Assembly (NCBI GenBank): GCA_026745465.1
Contig: JACYXH010000826.1
Span: 2,046,001-2,110,000, forward strand
Length of the DNA stretch: 64,000 nucleotides
Direction of reading: 5' to 3'
Source of the DNA: Lota lota
Lineage: Eukaryota; Chordata; Actinopteri; Gadiformes; Lotidae
Translations under genes and position numbers: made by a program
The notes under the pieces: model-generated
Databases searched by the model: none
Seen by the model: only the letters and a program-made list of their open reading frames with translations
What the model was told of the DNA's origin: nothing
In this document: positions 42,960-45,900 of the stretch, piece after piece
Position numbering within the stretch: the stretch's first letter is position 1
How the letters are laid out: each line of letters begins with the position of its first letter

Positions 42960-45900
42960 TCAGCACTGACTTGGCTCAGATCTGAAAACAGAACGCAGAC
43001 AGTCAAGGAAAATTCTTTCTATGTCTCTTAACAGGAACATAGGCAACCCCCACCCCACCCCCCCACACACACACACACACAAAATAAATCCCAAACTATT
43101 TACTCCCAGTACACAGAGTGATCTAATGCCACAGTGTCAGAGAGATGTTCATACCAGTTTGATTTGTATGTGTGTGTGTGTGTGTGTGTGTGTGTGTGTG
43201 TGTGTGTGTGTGTGTGTGTGTGTGTGTGTGTGTGTGTGTGTGTGTGTGGGGGGGGGGGGGGGGGGGGTCTATTTTTATAGACTGCAGTCTATAAAAATAA
43301 ACTGCGGTCTTCGTATCCACACAGGTAAGTAGAGGATGTATGCTCACCGATCCAACTCCTTGTAGATATCATCTCCTTCTCCTGGTTTCAAATCCTGACA
43401 AGGTTGAGAGAGAAATAAGATGAGACAGGAAGGGAAATGCAAGGGGAGAAGTGAGGAGAAGGAAGGGGAGGGAGACCTGTGGCAAAGGGGTTCTATTTAT
43501 TTATTCTCCAGAGTGGGATGCAGTTGATTTGTTAATCTCACTAGTGTTAGGTAAGATGGCGCCCTGTCGACAAGTTTATCTGAGAGAGGGCAGACGGATT
43601 GGTGGGGAGGATCACTGACAGCTCTGGGAGAGGCAAAAAAGAGAGGGAAAGCTATGTGTGTCTATGTGCTTTTCTGTCACAGTTGCCAACACTTCCTGAC
43701 ACTTCAACACACGCATCTGCACACACACATACACACACAGACACACACACACACACACACATTTACACATAAACACACACACACACCACAATGGCTCACC
43801 ATGTAGACGGACCCCTGTGGAGACGTCTGCTGGGGAGGAGAAACACAACAAAACCAGCTTTAACAACCAACAACCAATCGGGAAACTAGGGAGGACAGGA
43901 CAATGAAAGATGGTGGGGACAGACAAGGGAGGCATATATGTAAAAAAGATAAAATGAGAGCGAGAGAGAGAGAGCGAGAGAGAGCGAGAGAGAACGAGAG
44001 AGAGAGAGAGAAATAGATACAATTGAGCATTCAAGGTAGGGCAGGAAAAAGGGAAAGAGAATGACTAGTAAGAAATAGAATAGGAAGAGCAGGGGAAGAA
44101 GGAGAAGAGGACAGGAAGAGGCGATGACAGCACTGAAATTCATCAGAGATTATTGAAATGTGGAGAGAGCATAAATCCATCACCAGTCTCATGTCCTCAG
44201 GATTCTCATAGATGTTCTCTGCCTCCCAAGAGTGATGAGAGAGGGACTGTTCAATACCTGCATTAGGAAACACACATGCACACACACGCATACACAAACA
44301 CGTGCACACAAACACAGTCAGACACACACACAGACACGTGCACACACAGACACATACACACGCAAACACACACAAAAAAACACACACACACAGACATGTG
44401 CACACATGCACACATGCACACACACACATACACAGAAAACCAGGCACACACATACACACATCCACAGGCACACACACACACACACACACACACACAAACA
44501 CACAAGCACAAACAAACAAACAAATGCACCAACACGCAGAGAGGCCAGAGTCATTTCATCAGCCACACAGGATGTCATGGTCCATATCACAGCTGAGGGG
44601 ACGTAAGATGGAAAGGACACAGGGAACTGTCAAAAAATGAAAGCGCCGGAAGACTCACCACCCTGAAAAATGTGTCTCTGTCTCCATAGCAACACGCCGA
44701 CAGCCGCAGCAACTAGGGGCACCAGGAGTAATAAAGCAGAGAGGGGGGGGAGTAGGGAGGGGGCGGCCACACCAGTGCTCTCTACTAGAGAAACAAATGA
44801 AAAAGAAAGAAAGACAAAGAGAGAGGGAGAGAGGCCGAAAAATATGGTGCAGATAACATTCAGTGTCCAGCTGGAGAGACTCATCCGCTCCTGTTTAGGT
44901 TAACATAGCAGAGAGATTTATCCACGTCATTCTGCTGCCTCGGACCTGCTTCTCAACACGTTACACAGATTTACATCATGCTGCTGCCAGTCCATCAATA
45001 GGAAAACACAGCCAACATAGAGCCAGTAGTATGGGTCTATGGTGGTGTTGAACAGCTCAATGGTCATCGGTTTCACAGGCTCAGTTTGGAAAACATAAAT
45101 AAGTCATGATGAGATTAGGCAAAAACATCACTAATAGGGAGCCTCTGAGATCAAAATGAACGTCCGTATAGTCAAGAGCAGCTTTTAGTGAGGAATTATA
45201 CGGCGGTGCTGAACGGAATCTGGATTTTTGCGCAATGTAAGTTTTACATTTTGACGTTATTAGTTGTGGGTGTTTACTGTGGATTGCATAGCTAGCAGAA
45301 TCCCTTTTTCCTCATATTCCCCTTGGTATCTACTCCTAGCGACAACTTGCCTCTGGGTAGATTGGCAAGCATAACAGAGTGTGGTGTGCAGCATTCTGGG
45401 ACATTAAAATAAGTAAACGTCTCTGGGGGAAAACAGAAAGAGAATGCGCAGGCGCTCCACTGGCGCCCAATTCCATTTTTATTCCATAAGCAAATATTAG
45501 CTCGCTGTTAAACAATAAAAAAAATTACGGAAAGAGCAGCAAATGCAAATGCAAATTGTTAGCTTTATTTGCAAAATAGTTTGGATGACTTCATTCTTGC
45601 AGCATACCGCGGGGGAACTGGTGGAGACGAGGAGGAGGTCCTGGTTCCTACGGAGATGAACGCTTTGATGGTTGATCCACCTCAGAGAGTGTTAAGGTTA
45701 GGCCGCAACGGCTGCATACACACTGTCCATATAATCAACTAGAAATAGCATCAGCATCAGAAAGTTGGAATTACATGAAAAAATGTACAAAAAATAAGAA
45801 AGAAAGAACAATTGTCCGAAAAAGGTCCTGTGTAACTCGAGTGGTAGAGCATGGCCTTAAGACCGCCAGGGTTCAGGGTTCAATTACCATGCTTAGAATA

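Follow-up and report, generated by a model that had tools for sequence, protein, structure and literature searches.

A Lota lota G6f-like gene, most likely orthologous to zebrafish G6f-like, with an ITAM split over two exons and a separate Grb2-type motif in its predicted tail

The gene described here is very probably the Lota lota G6f-like gene (G6fL). It is most likely orthologous to the zebrafish gene of that name, and the receptor that it encodes most likely works as the zebrafish protein does. The gene lies on the minus strand of the window, by which we mean the whole stretch of 64,000 nucleotides that was analysed. The assignment of orthology rests on the tail peptides, the architecture and a neighbouring gene; the comparison was made with zebrafish peptides.

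The zebrafish protein has four Ig domains and one transmembrane domain (Hughes et al. 2012, PLoS One 7:e52622; PMC3528668). Amongst its tyrosines, Y499 belongs to a YxN Grb2-type site, and Y515 and Y527 to an ITAM that is split over two exons, which the authors consider to be a feature of classical ITAMs (PMC3528668). Hughes et al. credit the description of G6f-like to Ohashi et al. (2010, Immunogenetics 62:543-559; cited in PMC3528668), in whose title the ITAM and thrombocytes already appear. The presence of an ITAM together with a Grb2-type motif in the tail of fish G6f-like is already known, and the novelty implied by an earlier note on this DNA, made from the letters alone, is lost, both zebrafish motifs having been described in print between 2010 and 2012. 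What the Lota lota gene adds is that a second fish has retained a G6f-like tail with both motifs and a split ITAM. The protein is of wider interest in that fish thrombocytes, as published in 2012, sense collagen via an ITAM receptor that is not homologous to GPVI.

Gene model and ectodomain

The model, built from open frames and splice sites, consists of nine exons joined in phase, which encode an ectodomain (four exons), a single transmembrane segment and a tail of 65 residues (Table 1). The phases at the eight joins are consistent, being 1 at the first five joins, the last of which leads into the first tail exon, and then 0, 0 and 2; GT donor and AG acceptor ends are present at all eight introns between modelled exons. 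The entry phase of ectodomain exon 1 is assumed, and its acceptor is uncertain (TTAAG or ACAG). The transmembrane segment was recognized by eye, from the translation, as a single hydrophobic stretch in the exon that also encodes the stalk. The introns near the two ITAM exons carry long (GT)n and CA-rich repeats (43170-43270 and 44270-44520), the first of which ends in a run of approximately 20 G.

Table 1. Exons of the Lota lota G6f-like model, in the order of the transcript; positions are those of the window.
Feature	Position	Strand	Remarks
Ectodomain exon 1, position of Ig domain 1	51815..52144	-	Open frame, GT donor, phase 1 out
Ectodomain exon 2, Ig-like domain 2	51115..51447	-	Phases 1-1
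Ectodomain exon 3, position of Ig domain 3	50135..50452	-	Phases 1-1
Ectodomain exon 4, Ig-like domain 4	48208..48468	-	Phases 1-1
Stalk and transmembrane exon (LLPPLSALLLLVPLVAAAVGVLLW, then RQRH)	44659..44784	-	Phases 1-1
Tail exon T1, with the Grb2-type YENP motif (...AENIYENPEDMRL)	44184..44257	-	Phase 1 to 0
Tail exon T2, 30 bases, QTSPQGSVYM, ending halfway through the first YxxL	43800..43829	-	Phase 0-0
Tail exon T3, completing the first YxxL with DL and carrying the second ITAM block, YKEL (DLKPGEGDDIYKELD, plus two bases of the codon that follows)	43348..43394	-	Phase 0 to 2
Last coding exon T4, ...SEPSQC, stop	42960..42981	-	Acceptor TTTTCAG, phase 2 in

No signal-peptide exon emerged from two scans of the sequence upstream of 52141, one reaching 60000 and the other 62000. 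The candidates that they returned (one and two, respectively) were rejected, all being low-complexity or unlikely sequence, and the N-terminus of the model was left open for this reason; residue numbers are accordingly those of a model without an N-terminus. The missing signal-peptide exon and a 3.4 kb intron between ectodomain exon 4 and the transmembrane exon might be taken to mean that this is not one gene, with the Ig exons in one transcript and the tail exons in another. Such an arrangement is, however, extremely improbable: the joins that lead from the Ig exons to the tail are in phase, have GT-AG ends, lie on one strand and follow the order published for G6fL.

The four ectodomain exons are of similar form, with 261-333 bases and phases 1-1 (the entry phase of the first being assumed). 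In the joined protein, four Ig models of Pfam exceed the cut-off, their best stretches lying over exon 2 (V-set and ig) and exon 4 (Ig_3 and Ig_2). When exons 2, 3 and 4 are scanned singly, all of their Ig matches fall below the Pfam cut-off, the sole match of exon 3 being to V-set at an E value of 0.15; exon 1, scanned alone, has no Ig match in Pfam. Single-sequence structure prediction gave low-confidence folds for exons 1 and 3 (mean pLDDT 44.2 and 40.8), and, with a mean pLDDT below 45, fold-based matches for these two exons would be meaningless. The Ig label of exon 1 rests on exon order and on the published architecture, and the four-Ig architecture of the Lota lota protein relies in part on the published description of the zebrafish one. 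A sequence search of the PDB returned 15 distinct sequences at E ≤10, of which the best was LAG-3 (E 0.0019), followed by IL-1 receptor-like 2, contactins, Roundabout and TIM-4; neither G6f nor G6b appears by name in this set. We read these matches as probable generic Ig similarity.

A search of the 575 Mb assembly with the ectodomain gave at least five matches, four of which are the window's own exons. The fifth (E 0.02, 34% identity over 61 residues) is taken as likely to be generic Ig similarity as well. A strong match was thus seen at one locus only among the eight candidates scored, a number of loci to be read as at least one. The tail peptide (47 residues) matched nothing in its own genome, the window itself included, and is uninformative on copy number; it missed even its own locus because its 47 residues are spread over four exons.

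The cytoplasmic tail and its zebrafish counterpart

Translation of the four tail exons gives the joined tail RQRHIFQGGIEQSLSHHSWEAENIYENPEDMRLQTSPQGSVYMDLKPGEGDDIYKELDRSEPSQC. Its ITAM, YMDL-KPGEGDDI-YKEL, has a spacing of x8 and occupies model residues 490-505; the segment YMDLKPGEGDDIYKEL thus has the form of the classical definition, Yxx[L/I]-x6-12-Yxx[L/I] in a cytoplasmic tail (PMC3528668). An intron interrupts the first YxxL block exactly at YM|DL, between T2 and T3. The tyrosine of the YEN motif is residue 473, and the first ITAM tyrosine lies 17 positions later, with 16 residues between them. The earlier note had placed the two ITAM exons at these coordinates, with this ITAM spacing, this split between exons and a Y-E-N motif 17 residues upstream, and was right on each count when the exons were joined in phase. 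It had also called the protein G6f-like and assigned both an ITAM and a YxN motif to its tail. The name agrees with the published architecture and with the tail-peptide matches described below, and both motifs are present, as they are in zebrafish G6f-like (PMC3528668).

Zebrafish peptides for comparison were obtained by translating the primers for mutagenesis and cloning given in PMC3528668, the reverse primer being translated by hand. Eight of ten aligned residues of T1 are equal to those of the peptide around Y499 (11 residues); QGSVYMDLK, where T2 runs into T3, shares eight of nine with the peptide around Y515 (nine residues); and, over the stretch that starts one residue ahead of IYKEL and ends at the C-terminus, eight of 12 aligned residues are equal, with one gap of two residues (peptide of 19), although, because primer peptides sit at the tyrosines by design, these values overstate the identity of the tail as a whole. 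Seven end residues of the 19-residue peptide are unaligned, and PTGEM, the five starting residues of the zebrafish peptide before Y527, has no alignment to the Lota lota tail. The two proteins are alike in having ITAM tyrosines 12 positions apart (VYMDL and IYKEL here; Y515 and Y527 in zebrafish), in the sequence ENIYENP, which places a Grb2-type YxN site ahead of the ITAM, and in combining four ectodomain units and one transmembrane segment with an ITAM split over two exons. They differ in that the distance from YEN to the first ITAM tyrosine is 16 positions in zebrafish and 17 in Lota lota, and in that the C-terminus after YKEL is ERYNQCCG in zebrafish, as deduced from the printed primers, and DRSEPSQC in Lota lota.

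Exon T2 has a tandem acceptor, CAGCAG (43827-43832, minus strand). Use of its second AG would give a tail with one glutamine fewer, and would shorten the distance between the YEN and ITAM tyrosines from 17 to 16, as in zebrafish.

ITAM patterns do arise by chance in long sequences. The window's unspliced stop-free segments (2125 of at least 20 aa, on both strands) contain 25 matches, and the pattern alone is insufficient evidence for this reason. That the ITAM of the joined tail is one more chance match, and that the tail works solely through its YxN site in the manner of mammalian G6f, is nevertheless scarcely credible. When the 65-residue tail was shuffled 20,000 times, the pattern Y..[LI]x6-12Y..[LI] appeared in just 0.7% of cases, and its x6-8 form in 0.34%; moreover, both YxxL blocks and their spacing are identical in zebrafish, where both tyrosines are required (PMC3528668). 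As far as sequence can establish it, the ITAM is confirmed as real, both by its placement after the transmembrane segment and by the agreement with the zebrafish protein at three tyrosine sites.

Signalling, related receptors and a possible isoform

Zebrafish G6fL is a thrombocyte collagen receptor, with thrombocyte expression being cited by Hughes et al. (PMC3528668). In DT40 cells it is activated by collagen, and this activation is blocked by PP2; signalling is abolished by either Y515F or Y527F, and is not significantly affected by Y499F (PMC3528668). Morpholino knock-down results in a clotting defect, slower aggregation to collagen and slower vessel occlusion after laser injury (PMC3528668). 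From the conserved tail, we infer that the Lota lota protein would act in a similar fashion. The Ig ectodomain would answer collagen exposed at a wound, Src-family kinases would phosphorylate both ITAM tyrosines on the clustered tails and Syk, in a step that we infer, may then dock on the ITAM via its two SH2 domains, leading to activation of the thrombocyte through a PLCgamma2/NFAT-type pathway. PMC3528668 contains no Syk experiment on G6fL. The separate YENP motif would be a candidate docking site for Grb2, dispensable for the NFAT response; the corresponding zebrafish site (Y499) has been shown only to be unneeded for that response (PMC3528668). The guess made in the earlier note, that this is an activating thrombocyte receptor unlike mammalian G6f, agrees with the zebrafish experiments.

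Like the GPVI and FcR gamma-chain pair, zebrafish G6fL couples collagen to the activation of platelets or thrombocytes by way of an ITAM and Src-family kinases (PMC3528668). The authors nevertheless hold that GPVI and G6fL should not be regarded as homologues; the ITAM of GPVI is on its partner chain, and GPVI responds to CRP whereas zebrafish G6fL does not (PMC3528668). Mammalian G6f (LY6G6F) is named as the mammalian orthologue and has a Grb2-binding YxN motif, but it has fewer Ig domains and no ITAM, and is apparently not a collagen receptor (PMC3528668). A tail of the mammalian type would have the YxN motif only; that of Lota lota has an ITAM in addition. The gene for another platelet Ig receptor, MPIG6B (G6b-B), shares its part of the human MHC region with LY6G6F; this receptor is inhibitory. 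The reference list of PMC3528668 includes a title according to which GPVI and CLEC-2 signalling is inhibited by G6b-B.

The small size of T2 raises the matter of splicing. With 30 bases and phase 0 on both sides, this exon could be skipped in frame, and the tail would then read ...EDMRLDLKPGEGDDIYKEL..., with one YxxL after acidic residues (...GDDIYKEL). A single YxxL preceded by acidic residues is hemITAM-like. It might be supposed that the ITAM is a splice-controlled switch of this kind, with isoforms that differ in signalling, and PMC3528668 does mention a ‘common splicoform’ of zebrafish G6fL, albeit only to say that the clone used departs from a database entry by a single stalk alanine. 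Such a switch is very unlikely. Skipping of T3 (47 bases) would break the frame, giving ...YMI and then a stop; the collagen response of zebrafish G6fL needs both ITAM tyrosines (PMC3528668), so that an isoform with one YxxL would probably be dead in the collagen assay; and the authors of PMC3528668 regard division over two exons as characteristic of classical ITAMs. No report of a one-YxxL isoform was found in those parts of the literature that were searched, which included PMC3528668, PMC3498127 and PMC5919432, and none of the titles retrieved on hemITAMs, alternative splicing, Syk and CLEC-2 concerned G6f-like. It is highly doubtful that T2 is a regulated cassette which, when included, completes a two-tyrosine ITAM and, when skipped, leaves a one-tyrosine hemITAM-like tail with YENP kept. 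Were it so, splicing would set the level of collagen signalling differently in different cell types, such as thrombocytes and erythrocytes.

Neighbouring genes

The next recognized gene downstream of G6f-like is an ABHD16-like hydrolase, with exons at approximately 38.3-40.75 kb on the minus strand. Its hand-joined translation scores 37.9 bits for Abhydrolase_1 (cut-off 25.8) and 27.3 bits for ABHD16_N, which is barely above the cut-off of 27. In human, ABHD16A adjoins LY6G6F, and it is for this reason that the neighbour was counted towards the identity of the G6f-like gene. By eye, the ABHD16-like gene (ABHD16A/BAT5-type) reaches about 42200, on the same strand as G6f-like. The two human genes lie head to head, so that the same-strand arrangement in Lota lota would mean a local change of orientation.

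Further away, pieces of a class I tRNA synthetase lie on the plus strand (19066-28350). Two fragments were scanned against Pfam: that from 27.8 kb matches tRNA-synt_1 above cut-off, and for that from 19 kb the sole match, to a leucyl-type editing domain, falls short of the cut-off. We read the enzyme as the valyl one; in human, VARS1 and ABHD16A both lie near LY6G6F, in the MHC class III region. Long CA/GT-type repeats occur in the same stretch as the synthetase pieces.
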